From a virus, in the IMG/VR virus record IMGVR_UViG_3300008266_000175, positions 1 through 38,046 of that record: a DNA stretch of 38,046 nucleotides; one strand, given 5' to 3'. This document shows, one piece after another, positions 2,063 through 14,289 of the stretch. The notes under the pieces were generated by a model. That model did no database searches, was not told where the DNA came from, and worked only from the letters and a program-made list of their open reading frames with translations. How positions within the stretch are numbered: the stretch's first letter is position 1; every line of letters starts with the position of its first letter. The translations under genes were made by a program, and so were the position numbers.

Positions 2063-2320
2063 ATGTCCGCCGAAACCGATGCAGCGAAGCTTGCCCGATG
2101 GAGAACCGAACTTGCCCAAGCAAGGGCAACCCGTGACCGGCTAGAGGTCAACGGCCAGTCCGCTTCGTTTGGCGGCGTCAACTTCTCCGGTGTTCAGTAT
2201 GAAGCTATCCTTAAGCGCGTTGCGCGCCTGGAAGCGCAGATTGACGGCATGGAGGAGAAGATTGCTGACTCCTCAATTCGCCCCGGCGTGAACCTTATCA
2301 ACATTGTCTCAGACCAGTAA
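2063..2320 (+). CDS. gpW-like head-tail joining protein
   Basis: 85 residues between the large terminase and the portal, exactly where lambda carries gpW. An N-terminal helix (AAKLARWRTELAQARATR) is followed by a short region that looks like a beta-hairpin (SASFGGVNFSGVQYE) and a second helix (LKRVARLEAQIDGMEEKI). This helix-hairpin-helix layout is the gpW pattern. In lambda, gpW binds the portal and completes the head before the tail attaches. The upstream leader (TTGAAACCTATTT) has no Shine-Dalgarno box. Identification rests on size, layout and position, not on a diagnostic motif. Confidence 0.65.
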   Translation: MSAETDAAKLARWRTELAQARATRDRLEVNGQSASFGGVNFSGVQYEAILKRVARLEAQIDGMEEKIADSSIRPGVNLINIVSDQ

Positions 2321-2321
2321 C

Positions 2322-4226
2322 ATGGAAAAGAAAAAGGCGGGTAACTTTATCGTGCCGGCGGCTTCTGAATTTTCCATGCGCAAGGCGCGGGAGATGCGGG
2401 AGACTTCTGACAAGATCAACTTCCAGTATGCGGGGGCCAAGACCACGCGCTTCCGTGACTTCCTGGGCTACAAGGGGAGCGAGACTGAAAGCCAGCTCCT
2501 CCCGTATTATGACCGACTTACGATCATCACCCGACTGCGCCAGCTTGTGCGGGATGACCCTTACTGCGCCTCCCTGCTTACGGCCTACGCCACCCAGATG
2601 GGGACTAGCACCATGTCCTCCGTTGCGGGTGAGGATGATGACGCGGCCTTTAATGACCGGCACGAACGGCTGTGGTATGAATACGCCAAGCGGGTGGAAT
2701 ACACGGGGCTTTCTCTTTCTGAGGTGGAGGCGATTCTATGGCGCGAGGATTTGATTTCGGGCGAGTTGTTTTTCTTGAAGCTCAAGAACGGGCGTTTGCA
2801 GATGATCCCGTCAGAGTTCTGCTTTAGCGATTACGCGAACATCCTGCCGGACTCCCCCGAGGCTGACGGTGTGGTGGTGAAGGACGGTCTGGTGACGGGC
2901 TATCGGTTCGGCTACCGGGACAAATACGGCACGCTGCAACCTGGCAAGGAAATCACCCCGGCAGAGAACGTCATTCATTTCTTCTTTCAGGACCGGCCCG
3001 AGCAGCGGCGCGGCGTCCCTCGCCTGTCGTCGGTGCTGAATGTCCTCCAAGACATTTACGAGATTTGCAATGCGAAGGTGAATCAGGTCAAGACACAGAG
3101 CTTTATCAGCGGTGTGGTGACGAAGAACTACGCCCCGGCAGATACGGCTGACATGATGCGCTTGACCAACAGCGACGGCACGCGCAGCGATTATCAGGAT
3201 TTGCGCGGGGGCACGTTGTATTACATGGAGACGGGCGAGGACATGAAGCCGTTTCAGTCGTCGATCAACGCGACTGATTTTGATGACTTCCTGAAGTCGC
3301 GGCTTGAGGCGGTGGGCGGTGCTATCGGTATGCCCCCCGAGTGCTGGATTGAGGGCTTCCGTGACAGCAATTACTCGTCAGCCCGTGCGACGGTTTCGAC
3401 TTGGGTGCGGACGGCGGCTGCGCGGCGTGGTCATTGCGTGGCTCGCTTCCTTGAGCCGGTGCATGACTTCTTCTTGGACAAGCGCCCCGGCGAGTTCCCC
3501 GACAAGGACGAAGCGGAGGAAGTTATCTTCACCTTCCCGGCTGTGCCGGCGATTGATGAGGGGAAGCAGAACGAGTCGGACGCGAAGGCGCTGGCGGCGT
3601 GCCTGACTTCCTACCAGCGGGTTTACGGTTCGCGGGGTCAGTTTTGGGACACGGAGTTCAAGCAGATTGCGCGGGAGAAGCAGCGCATGGAGACGCTGGA
3701 CATTGCCCCCAACTTCGCCCCCAACGCAACGGCAGGCACGCCCAGCAAAAGCCAGCAGGCCAAGCAGCAAGAGGACGCAGCCAAGGAAGCTAAGGAGGAG
3801 GAGATGCGCCACAAGGAAACGATCATCGCCTTGTCCGCGAACCGCCCCATTGTGCCCCCGCCCCACCAGATCACGGTGATGCCCCCGAATGTTACGGTTT
3901 CCCCTTCGACGGTGAACGTCCCGGCCCCCGTGGTTAATTTCGAGATGAAGCCCAGCACGATCAACGTCGAGCCGGCCCAGGTGAACTTTACCAACGCCAC
4001 CCCTACCGTAAACGTGGCGGCAGCGGAAGTGAATGTTCCGGCCCCCGTGGTGAATGTGGCGGCGGGTGCGGCTCCGGTGGTGAACTTTGAAGCCCCGGCC
4101 CCGGTGGTGAACGTGACCACGCCGGCCCCTGTCGTTAATGTAACCGTTCCTCCGCTCAACGCCCGCGTGACCTTCGACAAGGACCGCACCGGCAAGATCA
4201 GCGGGGCGGACATTAAGGACGCTTAA
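2322..4226 (+). CDS. Portal protein, lambda gpB family, with a repetitive C-terminal tail
   Basis: 634 residues from ATG 2322, one base after the preceding stop; a TTG at 2304 would add six residues but overlaps the preceding gene. The portal forms the twelve-subunit ring through which DNA enters. Family features include the region with LRQLVRDDPYCASLLTAYAT, a conserved acidic core (YDRLTIITRLRQLVRDD) and the downstream segment with GMPPECWIEGFRDSNYSSAR, which is characteristic of lambda-type portals. After residue ~470 there is a glutamine/lysine/glutamate-rich helical stretch. Residues ~522-612 then form an unusual low-complexity tail of repeated VNV, PAPVVN and similar units, ending in a segment with spaced aspartates (FDKDRTGKISGADI). 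The core is an ordinary portal; the tail is treated separately as a finding. Confidence 0.92.
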   Translation: MEKKKAGNFIVPAASEFSMRKAREMRETSDKINFQYAGAKTTRFRDFLGYKGSETESQLLPYYDRLTIITRLRQLVRDDPYCASLLTAYATQMGTSTMSSVAGEDDDAAFNDRHERLWYEYAKRVEYTGLSLSEVEAILWREDLISGELFFLKLKNGRLQMIPSEFCFSDYANILPDSPEADGVVVKDGLVTGYRFGYRDKYGTLQPGKEITPAENVIHFFFQDRPEQRRGVPRLSSVLNVLQDIYEICNAKVNQVKTQSFISGVVTKNYAPADTADMMRLTNSDGTRSDYQDLRGGTLYYMETGEDMKPFQSSINATDFDDFLKSRLEAVGGAIGMPPECWIEGFRDSNYSSARATVSTWVRTAAARRGHCVARFLEPVHDFFLDKRPGEFPDKDEAEEVIFTFPAVPAIDEGKQNESDAKALAACLTSYQRVYGSRGQFWDTEFKQIAREKQRMETLDIAPNFAPNATAGTPSKSQQAKQQEDAAKEAKEEEMRHKETIIALSANRPIVPPPHQITVMPPNVTVSPSTVNVPAPVVNFEMKPSTINVEPAQVNFTNATPTVNVAAAEVNVPAPVVNVAAGAAPVVNFEAPAPVVNVTTPAPVVNVTVPPLNARVTFDKDRTGKISGADIKDA

Positions 4227-7175: not shown

Positions 7176-8063
7176 ATGGCTACTCTTACCAATGTTAATG
7201 ACAAGATCATCGCCCAGCGGGCGCTTGAAGGCTTTACCGAATACCTTCACCCCATGAACCTGTTCTCCACGTCTTATTCCGATGAGACGAAGAACAAGGG
7301 CGACACCATCATCGTTCCCCTCGTGGGCACCCTGACGGCCACCACGTTCAACCAGGATTACCAGGTCGGCGGCGGCACCCTTACTGCCGTGACGATCAAC
7401 CTGAATGTCCACAAGATCGTTCCGCTCTCCCTGACGGACGTTCAGTTTGCCAATTCCTCGGTTGCCCAGCTTGAGAAGTGGGGCTTCCAGGCCGGTCAGG
7501 CGCTCGCCACCGCGATCACCCAGCACGTTTTCAGCTACGTCACCTCTGGTTCGCCGTCGTTCTTCAACACGGCTTACACCTATCCGGTTGCGTCGTGGAA
7601 CGTGTCCCGCATCGCCACCATCCGCCAGGCGATGACCGTTGCCAAGGTTCCGATGGACAATCGCAGCCTGTTCCTCGACCCGACTGCCTACTCGCAGACC
7701 CTGTCCGACACCAACATCTCTTACGCGATGTATGCCGGCACGAATGATGCGCTGCGCGAAGGTCGTGTTCCTCGCGTCTATGGCTTCGACATCCGCGAGA
7801 GCAACCTGATTCCCACCACGGACACGATGTATGGCTTTGCTTGCCATCCTTCGGCCCTCGCTCTGGCGATTCGCGCCCTCGCTCCGCAGGCTCCTTCGGC
7901 CTACGAGGCGGCTGGCGTCGTCACCAACGCGGAGACGGGCGCTGCCCTCGGTATGCGCCGCCACTACCAGCCCTCCAACGGCACCCACTACCTCAATTTC
8001 GAGGCCATCTTTGGGGCGACCTACGGTATCACGGCTGGTCTGTCGCGCATCGCTTTCCGTTAA
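7176..8063 (+). CDS. Major capsid protein, HK97-fold type
   Basis: 295 residues, directly after the protease/scaffold and followed by a strong terminator, as expected for the most highly expressed head gene. The sequence has an N-terminal segment with FTEYLHPMNLFSTSYSDE, a beta-rich region (GDTIIVPLVGTLTATTF), a long helix (LEKWGFQAGQALATAITQHV), and a C-terminal half with SLFLDPTAYSQTL and YGFDIRESNLIP, which is the usual order of HK97-fold coat proteins. No delta domain is apparent at the N-terminus, consistent with the coiled coil being supplied by the preceding protein. The leader before the ATG (CCTAACTTTTTACTACA) has no Shine-Dalgarno box. Confidence 0.9.
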   Translation: MATLTNVNDKIIAQRALEGFTEYLHPMNLFSTSYSDETKNKGDTIIVPLVGTLTATTFNQDYQVGGGTLTAVTINLNVHKIVPLSLTDVQFANSSVAQLEKWGFQAGQALATAITQHVFSYVTSGSPSFFNTAYTYPVASWNVSRIATIRQAMTVAKVPMDNRSLFLDPTAYSQTLSDTNISYAMYAGTNDALREGRVPRVYGFDIRESNLIPTTDTMYGFACHPSALALAIRALAPQAPSAYEAAGVVTNAETGAALGMRRHYQPSNGTHYLNFEAIFGATYGITAGLSRIAFR

Positions 8064-8168: not shown

Positions 8169-9944
8169 ATGAATCAGCCCCTAATTTCGCTGTGCATGAT
8201 TGCCGGAAATGAATCAATGCACGTTAGACGGTGTTTAAAGACGTTCTCGCCATGTGCTGACGAGATTATTGTGGTCCGGGCGATAGGTTCGCTCACCCCT
8301 GACGACACGCTAGACATTGCCAAGAACGAGTTCGGGGCGATCACCGCCGAATACAAGAACGGGGTGGGGCGGGAGGACTGGCCGCATGTGGACAACTTCG
8401 CAGCCGCTCGCAACATGGCTTTTGACCTGGCGAATGGAAAGTTCCAGCTTTGGGTGGACTTCGACGACATCGCGGAGCCGGATCACGTCCTTGGAATCAA
8501 GGAAGCGGCTGAGGATTGCGCGGACGGAAAGACCGATTGGGACATTTTTCACTTTGGCTACGTCATTCCTTACAGCGGGGCGAAGCCCTTGCGGGAGCGG
8601 CTTGTGCGGCGGGGTGCTGGACGCTGGCAGAACGCAGTCCATGAGTGCATTACCGACCTGAAAGACGGGTGCAAACAGGCTTACAACACGCAGCTTGAAA
8701 TCGTCCACGCCCCGATGGAGAACAAGGTGAAGATGGGGACTAGCTCCTCCCGCAACATCCGCATCCTCGAAAGCATTGAGAAGAAAACGCACGGAGAGGC
8801 TTTCTTTTACTTCATGGAGCTTTGCGGGACTGGCCGGCGAGCGGACGCCCTAGAAGCTGGCAAGAAAGCCCTGTCTTACACCGACCTTGGGGACGCGGAA
8901 CGGTATGAGGTCTTTATGAACCTCGCCAGCATGGCCGAAAAGAAGGAAGTGCGGCGGGCGTTCCTGTGGGAAGCGGTCAAAATCTCACCGGAGCGGCGGG
9001 AGGCGTTTGCCTTGCTTTGTGGGGACGCCACTAACTGCCACGAGCCTGACCTAGCCTTGGCCCTTGCAAGGCTTATGAAGGCACTTCCTAGGCCCGTGGT
9101 GAGGCATTACACGCACCGGGATAACGTCTATGGCTTCGGCGGGGATTTGATCCATGCGGGGGCTTTGCGGCTGAATGGCATGTTTGCGGAGGCGGACAAG
9201 CTAGAGGTGGACAATTTCGAGGCCAACGGGGCGAAGATTTCCCTCCTCCATGCCACTCGCGGACGCTTCCAGCAAGCCGCCCTTGCGCGGAAGTATTGGT
9301 ATGACACCGCGATTGAACCGGGGGCGATTGAGCACATCTTCGCCATTGATGAGGACGACAAGGAGAGCTTTAACGCCCTTGGAACGTTCCGCCATGTGAA
9401 GGTAAAGGCGGGCGGGGGGTGTGTCGCAGCCTGGAACGCAGCGGCGGAAGCCTCCCGTGGGTCTGTCCTTATCCAGCTTTCCGATGACTGGATTCCGCCT
9501 ATCGGGTGGGACAAGGAAATCTTGAGCCGCATCGGCAACGTGAAAAAGCCTGCCGTGCTGGCGATCAGCGACGGCCATCGCCGGGACGGGCTGCTTTGCA
9601 TGGCGATCCTGACCCGCTGGCGTTACTGCGAGCAAAAGGACGAGGAGGGGAAGCCCTACCTTTTCCACCCCGAGTTTAAATCCATGTTCTCGGATACCTA
9701 CTTTAGCTGGAAAGCCTACAAGGACGGGGTGGTGATCGACGCTACCGACTTCGTAATTGAGCACCGGCACCCCCTGTTTGATACGTCCATCCCCGAGGAT
9801 AAGACCTATGCGGAGAGCAACGCACCGGAGCGATACGAGCAGGGCGGGAAGATTTATGAGCGGCTGACGGGCGAGAAACTCCCGCCCCCGCCCAGCAAAG
9901 AGGAAGCGGCGAGGATGCTGGCCGAAATGAGGGCGAAGAAATGA
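8169..9944 (+). CDS. Two-domain family 2 glycosyltransferase
   Basis: 591 residues. The N-terminal ~200 residues form a GT-A fold of the GT2 type: SLCMIAGNES at the start, DEIIVV, and a metal/nucleotide-binding acidic motif LWVDFDDI. The middle (about 215-330) looks helical and repeat-like (EALEAGKKALSYTDLGDAER), as in TPR-containing glycosyltransferases. A second GT-A-like part follows (IEHIFAIDEDDKESF, then AWNAAAEASRGSVLIQLSDDW, about residues 390-450). Such enzymes move a sugar from a nucleotide sugar to a glycan or protein. It is the first of three adjacent glycosyltransferases and overlaps the next by four bases. Donor and acceptor cannot be read from the sequence. Confidence 0.85.
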   Translation: MNQPLISLCMIAGNESMHVRRCLKTFSPCADEIIVVRAIGSLTPDDTLDIAKNEFGAITAEYKNGVGREDWPHVDNFAAARNMAFDLANGKFQLWVDFDDIAEPDHVLGIKEAAEDCADGKTDWDIFHFGYVIPYSGAKPLRERLVRRGAGRWQNAVHECITDLKDGCKQAYNTQLEIVHAPMENKVKMGTSSSRNIRILESIEKKTHGEAFFYFMELCGTGRRADALEAGKKALSYTDLGDAERYEVFMNLASMAEKKEVRRAFLWEAVKISPERREAFALLCGDATNCHEPDLALALARLMKALPRPVVRHYTHRDNVYGFGGDLIHAGALRLNGMFAEADKLEVDNFEANGAKISLLHATRGRFQQAALARKYWYDTAIEPGAIEHIFAIDEDDKESFNALGTFRHVKVKAGGGCVAAWNAAAEASRGSVLIQLSDDWIPPIGWDKEILSRIGNVKKPAVLAISDGHRRDGLLCMAILTRWRYCEQKDEEGKPYLFHPEFKSMFSDTYFSWKAYKDGVVIDATDFVIEHRHPLFDTSIPEDKTYAESNAPERYEQGGKIYERLTGEKLPPPPSKEEAARMLAEMRAKK

Positions 9945-10744
9945 CCAAGATTACCTGCTGCATCTTGACTTACAACGAAGCGGAGCGAATCCGTATAGCC
10001 CTGACCCATGCCTTCAAGTGGGCGGATGAGGTTTGCGTGATCGACAAGGGGAGCACGGACGAGACGCGCACCATCGCGGAGAACCTGGGGGCTAAGGTCT
10101 ATGTGATGAACTACACCCGCCAAGGGCATGAGGACTTGGTGCAATACTCCTCCTTTGCATCGAATGACTGGCTGTGGTGCTTCACCCCCGGCGAGGTTCC
10201 GACCAAAGCGTTGATTGAACGGGGGCGGGAGTTGGTTTATTCCGGCAAGTATGACCTGATTCGCGTGCCGATGATGTATTTTTCGTTTGGCATCCATCAC
10301 GAGAAAAGCCCGTGGTCGTGGTCGTTGCAGCCTCGCCTCTACAACCGCAAGCACGTTGTTTTCTCTGGGCAGGCGCACAATCCAATCGGGGCGGAACGGT
10401 TCTTCAACATTGAGCCCACCGAACACATCTACGTCCTCCATCAGACCCATTCAGACGCGCAGGGATTCATGCGGGCGCACGCCGATTACATGATAAACGA
10501 GGCCAACCAAGGCACGCCAGAGGAGGCAATGGCTCGCGCTATGGCTTGGATCGGGCGATTCGACGAAGCGTTCAAGGCCAATCAAGAACTTATCCCGCAG
10601 GCTTGGGGGTGGAAAATCTACTGGCTGGGCGTCCTCCTCCATGCGTGGGAACGGCAAGCCCCTAGCGTAAAGAAGCAATACAAGGAGCGGGCAGAGAAGT
10701 TCCTTGTAAACGAGTGGGGCGGAATCCAAACGGCAACCGACTAA
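9941..10744 (+). CDS. Family 2 glycosyltransferase, WaaE-like
   Basis: 267 residues; starts ATGA-overlapped with the preceding gene. The N-terminus CCILTYNEAERIRIAL is the classic opening of GT2 enzymes, followed by WADEVCVIDKGSTDETRTIA, where the aspartates of the nucleotide-binding strand are visible. WCFTPGEVPTK takes the place of the usual WxLxxDADE segment, so the metal-binding DxD is not clear. PRLYNRKHVVFSGQAHN is the expected acceptor-side region. The closest familiar type is the WaaE/KdtX group that adds hexose to lipopolysaccharide cores, but its acceptor here is unknown. The altered acidic motif could mean changed chemistry. Confidence 0.82.
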   Translation: MTKITCCILTYNEAERIRIALTHAFKWADEVCVIDKGSTDETRTIAENLGAKVYVMNYTRQGHEDLVQYSSFASNDWLWCFTPGEVPTKALIERGRELVYSGKYDLIRVPMMYFSFGIHHEKSPWSWSLQPRLYNRKHVVFSGQAHNPIGAERFFNIEPTEHIYVLHQTHSDAQGFMRAHADYMINEANQGTPEEAMARAMAWIGRFDEAFKANQELIPQAWGWKIYWLGVLLHAWERQAPSVKKQYKERAEKFLVNEWGGIQTATD

Positions 10745-11343
10745 TGACACCAGAACTCTCCATCCTTATTTGCGGCACCCCCTCGCGGGCGCGTGACAAG
10801 GCACTTCCCTTGATTGAAAAGCTGGAAAAGCAGTCCCTTTTCCTGCCGGTGGAAATCCTCTATCTGCTGGACAACAAGAAGCGATCCGTAGGGCAGAAGC
10901 GGCAGGCTTTGCTCGACATTGCGCGGGGGCGATACGTCGCGTATGTGGACGACGACGATGACGTAAGCGAGGATTACATTGATTGCCTGCTGTCGGTTAT
11001 CCAGGCGGACGAGTGGAGCGGGAAAGCCCCTGACGTTATCACCTTCGACCAAGCCTGTGACATTGCCGGCAATTTCGGGGTCGTGCGCTTTGGGCTTGGC
11101 AACCCCAACCACGACTTCGTTCCCGGTCATATCACCTTGCGGAACGCTTGGCACGTTTGCGCGTGGAAGCGTGAACTAGCTAGGACCGCCCGCTTCCCCA
11201 ATATGATGGATGGGGAGGATTGGGCGTGGGCGGAACAGCTTTGCGTGCGGGCGCAGACCTCGGCCCATATTGACAAGGTTCTTCACCTTTACCGCTTCAA
11301 CCCCGCCACGACAGAGGCTACCGGAAAGGAGAATCCGACATGA
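10744..11343 (+). CDS. Family 2 glycosyltransferase, short
   Basis: 199 residues from ATG 10744, whose A is shared with the preceding TAA; an upstream in-frame start at 10714 would lie inside the preceding gene. It opens with LSILICGTPSRARDKA, then KRQALLDIARGRYVAYVDDDDDVSEDYID, which in pieces shows a GT2-type strand ending in five aspartates (metal and nucleotide binding). A later region DGEDWAWAEQL fits the catalytic (D/E)-D-x segment of GT2 enzymes. It is the third member of the glycosyltransferase set. Substrate unknown. Confidence 0.82.
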   Translation: MTPELSILICGTPSRARDKALPLIEKLEKQSLFLPVEILYLLDNKKRSVGQKRQALLDIARGRYVAYVDDDDDVSEDYIDCLLSVIQADEWSGKAPDVITFDQACDIAGNFGVVRFGLGNPNHDFVPGHITLRNAWHVCAWKRELARTARFPNMMDGEDWAWAEQLCVRAQTSAHIDKVLHLYRFNPATTEATGKENPT

Positions 11344-11519: not shown

Positions 11520-11834
11520 ATGAGCGAAAGCCTTGCTGACGGGATGACGACCACCCTTGCCTCCCTTGCCAAATGGACGGGAGACAAAATCTATTATCAG
11601 GGGCGGAACTTCGACGTTATCAGCGGTCCTATGGTGCTGATCGACGGGTCGGACCTGACCGGCTCCCTCCCCGGCAGGCTTTATCAGCGGTCCATCCAGA
11701 AGAAGGACTTCCCCGGTGGTCCGCCCCCCGAGGGGGCCAAGATCAAGATTAACGGCATCGAATACACGGTGCGGGGCGACACCCAGGAAGATTCCCTTCA
11801 CTACGTCATCACGCTGGCAAAGCACGGGGCTTAA
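11520..11834 (+). CDS. Head-tail connector protein, gpFII-like
   Basis: 104 residues. The start is preceded by TAGGTAGGC, which contains a weak ribosome-binding purine stretch. The C-terminal half (PPEGAKIKINGIEYTVRG followed by SLHYVITL) is the beta-strand pattern common to small head-completion and tail-attachment proteins such as lambda gpFII relatives. The order portal, capsid, this gene, gp10-like gene, tail-completion gene matches siphovirus neck modules. It probably forms a ring between the head and the tail. Identification is by pattern and position. Confidence 0.6.
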   Translation: MSESLADGMTTTLASLAKWTGDKIYYQGRNFDVISGPMVLIDGSDLTGSLPGRLYQRSIQKKDFPGGPPPEGAKIKINGIEYTVRGDTQEDSLHYVITLAKHGA

Positions 11835-12667
11835 TGGGCTTCGCCAAAGCACAGGTCAATTTCATCCAGTTCAACCGCGCAATGGTTGATTTGCAGCGCG
11901 TCACGGGTCAGACCATGAAGCAGGTTGTCAGGTCTGAGGTTGGGCATATTCTCAAGGAGTGCGCGGCCAAGACGAAGGTTGCCACGCAAGACTCGGTTCA
12001 GCGCAAGGCTCAACTGAAAGCCATTAAGAGTCTGAATTACACCCAAGCCCCAGACCGGGGCGATGTTTCCGTTAATTCTGGTTGGCGAAAGAACTCACCT
12101 TATGGGCGGGTCTGGATAAAGGTCCGCTCCGGTTCTGGCCGGAAGAACTATATTCTGGCGCGTGGACCAAACTTTGATTTCCCGGCTGGGTCTGCCACGC
12201 TTGAGCTAACGCCTGGAAGCCGGACGGGCACTAATCGTTGGATTGCTAACGTGCGTTTGGCCGTTGGCCGTGTCGTTCCTGCCGTTGAGGAAACCTTTGA
12301 AAAGGCCATCAAATCGGTTGGCCTTGCTCGCCAGAGTTGGGTGCAAATTGCGGACTCTCTCAACATTCGCTTGGAGAATGTTCCCGGCACAAACCTAACG
12401 GCCCAAGGACTAGCGAAGGCACGGGCGGCACTTGCTTCCGATGGTGTCGCGTATATCAACGGAACGGCGAGGGAATACGGTGACGCCAAAAAGTTTATCG
12501 TCCAGATCATTAACAAACTGCCGTATGTCCGGCGCGTTAAGATGGACGCTGTTCTAGCTAGGGCGATCAATTCGCGGACGACCAAGTTTTACAAGGCCGC
12601 GCAGCAGGGCGTTTTCAACAGCGCGAAGAAAACCTTGTCAAAATATCCCGGTCTTTTCGTTAGCTGA
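11834..12667 (+). CDS. Neck or minor tail protein
   Basis: 277 residues, with the ATG sharing its A with the preceding TAA. The N-terminal half is helical (NRAMVDLQRVTGQTMKQVV), and a basic middle has SGSGRKNYILARGPNF. The C-terminal part includes LPYVRRVKMDAVLARAINSR, a layout like HK97 gp10-type neck proteins but longer than the usual ~110-150 residues. It probably acts in head-tail joining. Its last eight bases overlap the end of the antisense ligase-like gene. Base composition looks somewhat less GC-rich than the flanking genes. Confidence 0.5.
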   Translation: MGFAKAQVNFIQFNRAMVDLQRVTGQTMKQVVRSEVGHILKECAAKTKVATQDSVQRKAQLKAIKSLNYTQAPDRGDVSVNSGWRKNSPYGRVWIKVRSGSGRKNYILARGPNFDFPAGSATLELTPGSRTGTNRWIANVRLAVGRVVPAVEETFEKAIKSVGLARQSWVQIADSLNIRLENVPGTNLTAQGLAKARAALASDGVAYINGTAREYGDAKKFIVQIINKLPYVRRVKMDAVLARAINSRTTKFYKAAQQGVFNSAKKTLSKYPGLFVS

Positions 12668-13190
12668 CGCCGGCAGGCTTCACCTTGAGCCAGTTACGGG
12701 AGCGCCCGTATTCGTAGAAGTGACCGGGGCGACGGAGCATAAGACCCTCGCCGCCGCCCTTCACGACACGGGCAAATTCGGTGTGGAGTTGCAGCATGGA
12801 CTCGACCCTGACCTGCGGGGCCAACTGGACAAACTCGCCGCTGATCCGTCCGCTTGCGTTTAGCTGGCGCTTTTCAAAGGGGACGGAATCGGTGTTGGGG
12901 GCGTCGAAAGCCATGAACTTGACCCGCTTCCATTCGTTGCTGTCGGCGCGGGGGAACTGAACCAGAACGCGCATAAGCTGGAAGGTCTGACGACCCGCCC
13001 ACAGTTCCCCGTCTAGCGCCTTTCCTTTAGGCATAGAGGCCGTGAACCATTCGGGGGCGGCAATGGGTAGCCAAGAGCGGGTGCGGAGGCAGGAACCGTC
13101 CCAGAAAGCGCGGCATCCGTCATACTTTTCAGACAGCCACCAGCCGACCACATTCTGCCCTTGATATGTCTCTGCCAGCATCATGCCCAC
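12660..13190 (-). CDS. ATP-dependent DNA ligase-like protein, LigE type, lacking the OB domain
   Basis: 176 residues, read against the late operon and meeting the neck gene tail to tail. It carries the nucleotidyltransferase motifs of ATP-dependent ligases in order: motif I SEKYDG (lysine 22), motif III ALDGELW (58-64), motif IIIa FMAFDAP (92-98), motif IV GEGLML (147-152) and motif V NWLKVKP (166-172). The wording around them (GWWLSEKYDGCRAFWDG, APEWFT) is that of the small LigE group. LigE proteins continue with an OB-fold of roughly 70-100 residues; here the protein ends four residues after motif V. There is no signal peptide, whereas many bacterial LigE proteins have one. It may still adenylate and seal nicks with a partner, or act as a stand-alone adenylyltransferase. 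Confidence 0.85.
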   Translation of the reverse strand: MGMMLAETYQGQNVVGWWLSEKYDGCRAFWDGSCLRTRSWLPIAAPEWFTASMPKGKALDGELWAGRQTFQLMRVLVQFPRADSNEWKRVKFMAFDAPNTDSVPFEKRQLNASGRISGEFVQLAPQVRVESMLQLHTEFARVVKGGGEGLMLRRPGHFYEYGRSRNWLKVKPAGVS

Positions 13191-13242: not shown

Positions 13243-14289
13243 ATGGCAGCGCCCGACCTAGCAACCTTATTTCAAGTAGAGGAACAGCTTAACGAGGCTT
13301 TCACGGGGGTCTTAAATGGGGCTGCGCCTTCGTTTTACGCCCATTCCACGGAGCAACGCCCCGCCGATCATATCAACGTGGTCACGGAACTAGGGGCGGC
13401 AACCGGCCAGCTTTACAGCAACCGGGAGTGGTGCGTTTGGAGTTTCCGCCTTCGTGTTACGGTAGTTACAGAGCGGGACCGGAGCGAGCCCACCCCCATC
13501 AGGCACGGGGCGACCAAGGCCAAGGTCCGCAGCCTGCTTTCTCGCCTGTCGGCCAAGTTCTCCACGGCAAACCTCCCTTACCTGCAAATCGCCCTCCTCC
13601 GTCCAGAGAATACCCAAGTGTCGTTTGATAACGACCAGCAGAGGGCGCAGGACGTAACGACCTTGGAGTATGCAGGGCAGGTTGCCATCCTGAACACGGC
13701 TTGGCCTACCGTCACGGCCAACTCCATAACGCCGACTTACTCGCCGGCCCCTGACCTGGTGGCCCTGTTCTCCCAAGAGGAGCAACTAAACTCAGCGGTG
13801 GTGGGGGTGCTCGACTCGGCTTGCCCATCCTTTTACGCTCACGACACCCGCGAACGCCCCAAAGACCACATCTCCGTTGTCTGTGAGCTAGGGGCGGCTA
13901 ATGGGCAGGTTTTTACCAATCAAGAATGGTGCTCCTGGGACTTCCGTTTGCAGGTAACGCTCCGCACGGAGCGGGACCGGAGCGAGCCCAGCCCCGCCCG
14001 CCATGCTGCAATCAAGGGGGAAATCCGTTCTAGGCTTTCCCGCCTTACCGGCAACTTCACCACGGCGAATCTGCCTTACCTTCAGATCACCCTTTTACGC
14101 CCCGAGAACACAGCGGTTTCTTTCGAGAACGACCAGAACAAGGCAGAGGACGTTACGGTTATGGACTACGCCGGTCAGGTGGCGATCCTTAACACCGCTT
14201 GGCCTACCGTTGCGGCCCCCGTTGGTCTGGAAACCTTTGCCGGGGATATGATGGTCAGCTTTGCGGGGGATGAGTTGGTGACGTTCTAG
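13243..14289 (+). CDS. Tail-completion-type protein made of two fused copies
   Basis: 348 residues. Residues 4-159 and 170-323 are two copies of the same domain, alignable without large gaps, each opening PDL-x-x-LF and closing with AGQVAILNTAWPTV. Shared inner motifs include ERDRSEP, NLPYLQI and LLRPENT. A short extra tail (LETFAGDMMVSFAGDELVTF) follows. Position, after the neck genes and before the tail-tube candidate, fits a tail terminator/completion protein (gpU or gp11 role), which is normally a single ~130-170 residue domain forming a six-membered ring. Function is inferred from position; the duplication is seen directly. Confidence 0.6.
   Translation: MAAPDLATLFQVEEQLNEAFTGVLNGAAPSFYAHSTEQRPADHINVVTELGAATGQLYSNREWCVWSFRLRVTVVTERDRSEPTPIRHGATKAKVRSLLSRLSAKFSTANLPYLQIALLRPENTQVSFDNDQQRAQDVTTLEYAGQVAILNTAWPTVTANSITPTYSPAPDLVALFSQEEQLNSAVVGVLDSACPSFYAHDTRERPKDHISVVCELGAANGQVFTNQEWCSWDFRLQVTLRTERDRSEPSPARHAAIKGEIRSRLSRLTGNFTTANLPYLQITLLRPENTAVSFENDQNKAEDVTVMDYAGQVAILNTAWPTVAAPVGLETFAGDMMVSFAGDELVTF
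13252..14211 (+). repeat. Tandem intragenic duplication, unit about 498 bases
   Basis: The two units (13252-13719 and 13750-14211) encode homologous domains offset by 166 codons. At the DNA level a 22-base block is identical at 13471-13492 and 13969-13990, which suggests that the duplication is fairly recent or homogenised. Confidence 0.85.

Follow-up and report, generated by a model that had tools for sequence, protein, structure and literature searches.

The stretch of DNA analysed here (the window) is a linear IMG/VR record of 38,046 nucleotides whose plus strand encodes a gpA-type terminase large subunit (115-2046; PHROG 15, E 2.7e-212), a portal protein (2304-4226) and a major head protein (7176-8063). 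Downstream lie a head-tail attachment-like protein of 104 aa (11520-11834; PF05354, E 4.3e-4, below the curated cut-off) and a neck-region protein of 277 aa with no recognised fold (11834-12667), which is "gp10-like" by position and size only. Convergent with the latter, the minus strand carries at 12660-13190 a gene for a LigE-type nucleotidyltransferase (NTase) lacking the OB domain, 176 aa long from a GTG codon and recognised by profile and structure matches, homologues and an AlphaFold2 model. On its other flank, the plus strand encodes a protein of 348 aa (13243-14289) in which one domain occurs twice as an in-frame tandem duplication, with halves 69% identical over 157 aa (E 1.8e-86). 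Glycosyltransferases of PHROGs 13126 and 14945 are found between the major head and neck genes, both in the window (8169-11343) and in the phages described below as clade B (L035:4614-6902); in L035 two glycosyltransferases are fused with a methyltransferase. A search for a near DNA relative of the window found none, and a promoter and terminator scan predicted none.

The window holds antisense ORFs of up to 552 aa, longer than the ligase frame, and the length of the latter is therefore no evidence of a gene. Homology is such evidence, and it is by sequence comparison that the minus-strand ORF is confirmed as real. The ATG at 13184, two codons inside the GTG, is the more probable start, given that MML or MFML opens the sequences of the closest relatives, and it would give a protein of 174 aa. 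The product is matched by Pfam DNA_ligase_A_M (3.2e-10, above the curated cut-off), by PHROG 114, which groups ATP-dependent ligases (1.4e-28), and by the NCBIfam DNA ligase profile PRK09125 (1.9e-50, covering 31-202 of 283). Three solved LigE chains also match it by sequence at 2e-27 to 2e-25, and its identity to the LigE structures 4d05, 6gdr and 8u6x is 35-39% over the NTase domain.

Reading the gene codon by codon locates, all on the minus strand, motif I (KYDGCR, 13110-13127, with the nucleophile K22), motif III (LDGELW, 12999-13016), motif IIIa (FMAFDAP, 12897-12917), motif IV (GGEGLMLR, 12732-12755) and motif V (LKVK, 12678-12689), the last followed by PAGVS and the stop codon. In the alignment, the K, D, G and R of motif I are identical in 19 of 19 OB-less and 92 of 92 full-length relatives, as are the DGE of motif III and the E and next G of motif IV in all aligned rows; both motif V lysines are kept in 19/19 OB-less rows, and motif IIIa has F in 18 of these and Y in one. 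The stop codon overlaps the end of the convergent gene at 11834-12667 by 8 bases, so that no in-frame OB domain can follow. A preliminary description of this DNA had named K22 as the catalytic lysine, taken motifs I, III, IIIa, IV and V to be intact, assigned the downstream bases to the neck gene and regarded the OB domain as missing, and each of these points is borne out, the last by the absence of the LigE OB domain PF14743 from the protein. It was also right that the protein stops after motif V, but the end lies five residues past the last motif V lysine and not four. The cytosolic location it proposed agrees with an ORF that starts at most three residues before the conserved MLAETY and thus offers no N-terminal extension for a leader, and its view of the protein as LigE kin, either an unusual minimal ligase or an adenylyltransferase, is supported by the homology, the intact motifs and the absent OB domain.

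The fold was compared with LigE by structure prediction, as had been suggested together with that view. The AlphaFold2 model, computed from 39 input sequences and covering all 174 residues, has a pLDDT of 93.1 and a pTM of 0.88, and its best Foldseek matches are the LigE structures 4d05, 6gdr and 8u6x, with TM values of 0.90, 0.88 and 0.86 when scored by the model and about 0.62 when scored by the target. VIA-align superposes model residues 1-174 on residues 5-179 of the 4d05 chain with a Z of 25.3, and gives a Z of 20.1 against the Chlorella virus ligase 1fvi. Since the match spans the whole model, the protein as predicted is one single and complete NTase domain that ends where the linker to the OB domain of LigE begins.

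LigE, a periplasmic enzyme of bacteria (4d05 Psy-Lig, 6gdr Ame-Lig and 8u6x from Neisseria), is therefore the nearest known system in sequence and fold, and shares all NTase motifs with the window protein. The latter differs from it in lacking the OB domain (about 81 residues), in having no room for a leader and in being encoded by a phage within late or packaging gene clusters. Lig E has been defined by PF01068 plus PF14743, with a leader predicted for 69% of Lig E nodes (PMC8455567). The window protein possesses the PF01068 NTase domain with motifs I-V, the NTase fold and the closest sequence kinship to LigE, but PF14743 is found neither in the protein nor in the 38-kb record at E<=1, the score against NF006592 is 171.5 bits where the equivalog cut-off is 200, and no periplasmic leader is apparent as judged from the ORF start rather than from a leader predictor. 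Because the OB domain and the leader that mark LigE are both missing, the protein is not filed as LigE but as an OB-less relative of it; the NTase plus OB core that structurally defines a DNA ligase is likewise incomplete.

Other known enzymes resemble it only in part. Full-length LigE-like ligases of phages (L010/L041, L021, L033, L034 and L043) share about 40-47% NTase identity with the window protein, and that of L041 is also antisense among structural genes; unlike it, they carry PF14743 (8/8 records), and the jumbo-phage forms add N-terminal extensions. The minimal ligases of T7 and Chlorella virus have no extra domains and the same NTase fold, but both possess an OB domain, and only the laboratory-made single T7 domain resembles the OB-less form. 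T4 RNA ligase 2 truncated to residues 1-249 consists of the NTase domain alone, adenylylates itself and carries out step 3 (PMC3149579), but it is an engineered RNA ligase whose natural version has a C-terminal domain. The "NT-only" sequences of a network survey (PMC8455567) likewise have an NTase without a detected OB domain and fall in a LigE/viral cluster; that survey took sequences of 250-370 aa only and set these aside as apparently partial, whereas the OB-less proteins considered here are complete, under selection and 160-185 aa long.

The window protein is one of a family, whose counts are lower bounds as candidates were retrieved by short peptide patterns. The nearest relative, from an uncultured Opitutae metagenome-assembled genome (MAG) (L061), is 55% identical end to end and ends in KPAGID, and that of a 41-kb viral contig (L001) is 42% identical and ends in KPAGVD. 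Clade B comprises 32 viral contigs whose ligases end in KVKRLxxDxDRWQG or a close variant, 10-12 residues past motif V. Two further copies, L109/L142 and L162, are present in one Spartobacteria genome and another in the viral contig L046. None of the OB-less relatives found has a reading frame that continues more than about 15 residues beyond motif V. Among isolated phages, no OB-less homologue was seen in those whose ligase ends were read. Five clade-B pairs gave dN/dS values of 0.10-0.18, and the clade-B ligase is thus under purifying selection. Comparison of these sequences shows the OB-less form to be conserved among relatives and not an artefact of truncation. One clade-B-like ORF (L231:3001-3141) matches residues 12-58 only, followed by a motif-IV-like MLLR and a stop, and is perhaps a decayed copy with an apparent internal deletion.

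The possibility of a frameshifted or separately encoded OB domain was rejected, as PF14743 was detected at E<=1 in 0/17 OB-less viral records, several of them fragmentary and the 38-kb window included, against 8/8 records with full-length LigE that served as positive control; a divergent OB domain or some other DNA-binding fold would escape this search. Each OB-less viral record has one ligase gene. Two findings named in the preliminary description as able to overturn the OB-less assignment did not materialise. An OB domain in another frame finds no place, since the neck gene fills the downstream DNA and both L061 and clade B also lack it. As for a full-length relative at the same site, the antisense LigE of phage L010/L041 occupies a different one, between the large terminase and portal genes, and is not the closest kin.

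The ligase is antisense in L001, one gene earlier than in the window, and also in L046, two small genes past the major head gene. The clade-B ligases read in the same direction as the structural operon; the attachment-like gene adjoins them in 28 of the 32 contigs, and a neck gene of ~250 aa follows downstream in 27. The earlier notion of an antisense cargo gene is only partly supported: the gene is antisense in the window, L001 and L046, but in clade B co-direction and fixed neighbours in 27-28 of 32 contigs make the ligase a stable part of the head/neck module. Exceptions to the head-tail site within clade B are L204-L206 and L193: in L204 the ligase is flanked by the genes for the small and the large terminase subunits, its stop and the next start overlapping, and in L193 one small gene before the portal. 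The large terminases of the window, L037, L041 and L204 were examined and all belong to PHROG 15. The 277-aa neck protein has a marginal collinear profile match to its clade-B counterpart (E 0.013, probability 3.4%), and because the neck neighbours of the window, L001 and clade B are linked by such marginal matches only, the shared position of the ligase rests on gene order and size. In the Spartobacteria MAG (G259, contigs 112 and 126; L142, L162, L166 and L165) the two OB-less ligases differ from each other, and each stands directly behind an integrase gene of the tyrosine-recombinase kind; the element that holds one of them also encodes a D5-type primase and a terminase, which matches the gpA nuclease domain. 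L061 is the exception to phage settings, as its contig carries cellular genes; inspection of its chromosomal neighbours gave no functional clue.

The number of OB losses was addressed with a tree. In the best tree the OB-less rows do not fall together: the window groups with L061, clade B stands apart, and OB-less L001 joins full-length L041 (98/94). This tree needs 5 OB changes, of which the starred branches force 2. A single origin of the OB-less form passes the AU test when all rows are included (p 0.168) but fails it once the longest branches are left out (p 0.027). More than one loss of the OB domain is thus likely from the sequences compared.

How such a protein might work is tentatively explained by a selected LigE-type core that would be adenylylated on K22, obtain its grip on DNA from a partner and seal nicks or ends of phage DNA late in infection, around packaging. 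In this scheme, in which we infer the adenylylation, the partner, the nick substrate and the timing alike, K22 would take AMP from ATP in step 1, as expected from the conserved residues, and, the OB clamp being absent, a partner, probably one of the packaging or neck proteins, would hold the DNA in place during steps 2 and 3. The LigE OB domain bears DNA-binding lysines whose joint loss abolishes binding, which counts against sealing by an OB-less enzyme (PMC6144786); as steps 2 and 3 of LigE rely on these lysines, the NTase domain either holds DNA weakly by itself or is assisted by a partner. That the gene so steadily accompanies head, neck and terminase genes speaks for a DNA-binding partner encoded among them. 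One plausible need would be the removal of nicks before packaging, given that nicks stop the T4 motor from translocating short DNA (PMC3012670). The truncated T4 RNA ligase 2 illustrates that an NTase-only protein is able to adenylylate itself and to join ends already bearing AMP (PMC3149579). The clade-B neighbour, considered as candidate OB partner, gave an AlphaFold2 model with a pLDDT of 77.9 and no fold match (best Z 3.8). Gene location shows association and not function, and as the gene also occurs behind integrases in Spartobacteria and among cellular genes in the Opitutae MAG, packaging is not its sole setting.

Other readings compete with this partner-assisted sealing. A weak nick ligase that needs no partner, its NTase domain binding duplex DNA alone and going slowly through all three steps, is unlikely but has a precedent: the isolated N-terminal domain of T7 ligase is said to carry out slow ligation by itself (Doherty and Wigley, 1999). 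All catalytic residues are kept, including R161, which aligns with the DNA-contacting R203 of Ame-Lig, and single domains of T7 ligase bind duplex DNA (PMC6144786). The net charge of the window domain is +7, whereas that of the NTase part averages 1.8 in full-length relatives. In clade B, however, several of the proteins have no net charge or a negative one (L040 -2, L057 -3), so that a basic surface is no general trait, and the constant gene neighbourhood hints at partners. The charge of OB-less domains ranges from -3 to +9, and the idea that a basic patch generally replaces the OB domain was rejected. It is rather unlikely that ligation is never completed and that the protein acts as an adenylyltransferase, with AMP passed on to 5' ends, which would cap stalled nicks or cohesive ends, or else to a protein or another small target. 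This would account for the loss of the DNA-presenting domain while the adenylation site is strictly kept, and the isolated NTase half of T4 RNA ligase 2, which still performs steps 1 and 3, separates adenylylation of the enzyme from that of the donor (PMC3149579); however, every OB-less row retains both motif V lysines, which in LigE stabilise the DNA step-2 intermediate (PMC6144786), and the gene neighbourhood points to no target.

That catalysis is lost and the protein only binds or regulates, as a decoy, inhibitor or scaffold, is improbable: the gene persists in structural clusters and the activity of the OB-less form is a prediction, but a non-catalytic protein would not be expected to keep its nucleophile lysine and motifs III-V so strictly. 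Hardly credible is a decaying or mis-assembled full-length LigE, in spite of the full-length phage genes (L010/L041, L021, L033, L034 and L043) and the pairing of L001 with L041, since relatives down to about 40% identity share the same C-terminal ending, dN/dS in the clade-B pairs is only 0.10-0.18, the DNA past the stop belongs to another gene, and PF14743 is nowhere else in the records.

The partner-assisted sealing preferred above may be extended, more doubtfully, to a natural class of OB-less ligases that lost the OB domain probably more than once and use the packaging or neck machinery as clamp, which would couple ligation to packaging or to cohesive-end joining. According to a 2021 survey, NTase and OB domains are present in every DNA ligase (PMC8455567), and the literature searched for ligases without OB, in which few subscription papers were covered, reports no natural one. 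The conserved form described here runs counter to the textbook view that no DNA ligase can do without either half, and offers a natural experiment on whether a single LigE domain can bind DNA alone, a question posed in the LigE structure paper (PMC6144786). Such a complete and selected family, located mainly in phage head, neck and terminase clusters, would be hidden by length filters and "partial sequence" labels, and could either define the true ligase minimum or reveal an adenylylation step linked to packaging.

Variation was also observed among full-length enzymes. Although LigE counts as an essentially proteobacterial enzyme that stands alone, the LigE ligases in MAGs of Planctomycetota and Myxococcales carry a C-terminal WGR domain after the OB domain (L071:7998-9032 and L135:7998-9401; PF05406, 2.5e-19 and 9.5e-22), which by eye is also present in L075, L098 and L131. 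In large phages, the N-terminal extension of LigE has a conserved C-x-C-(7-10)-C-x-x-H pattern (L003:5710-6783, L009:5509-6750 and L011:5719-6813, in records of 485, 308 and 257 kb, respectively) that has no Pfam match there and by eye resembles a SWIM zinc finger.
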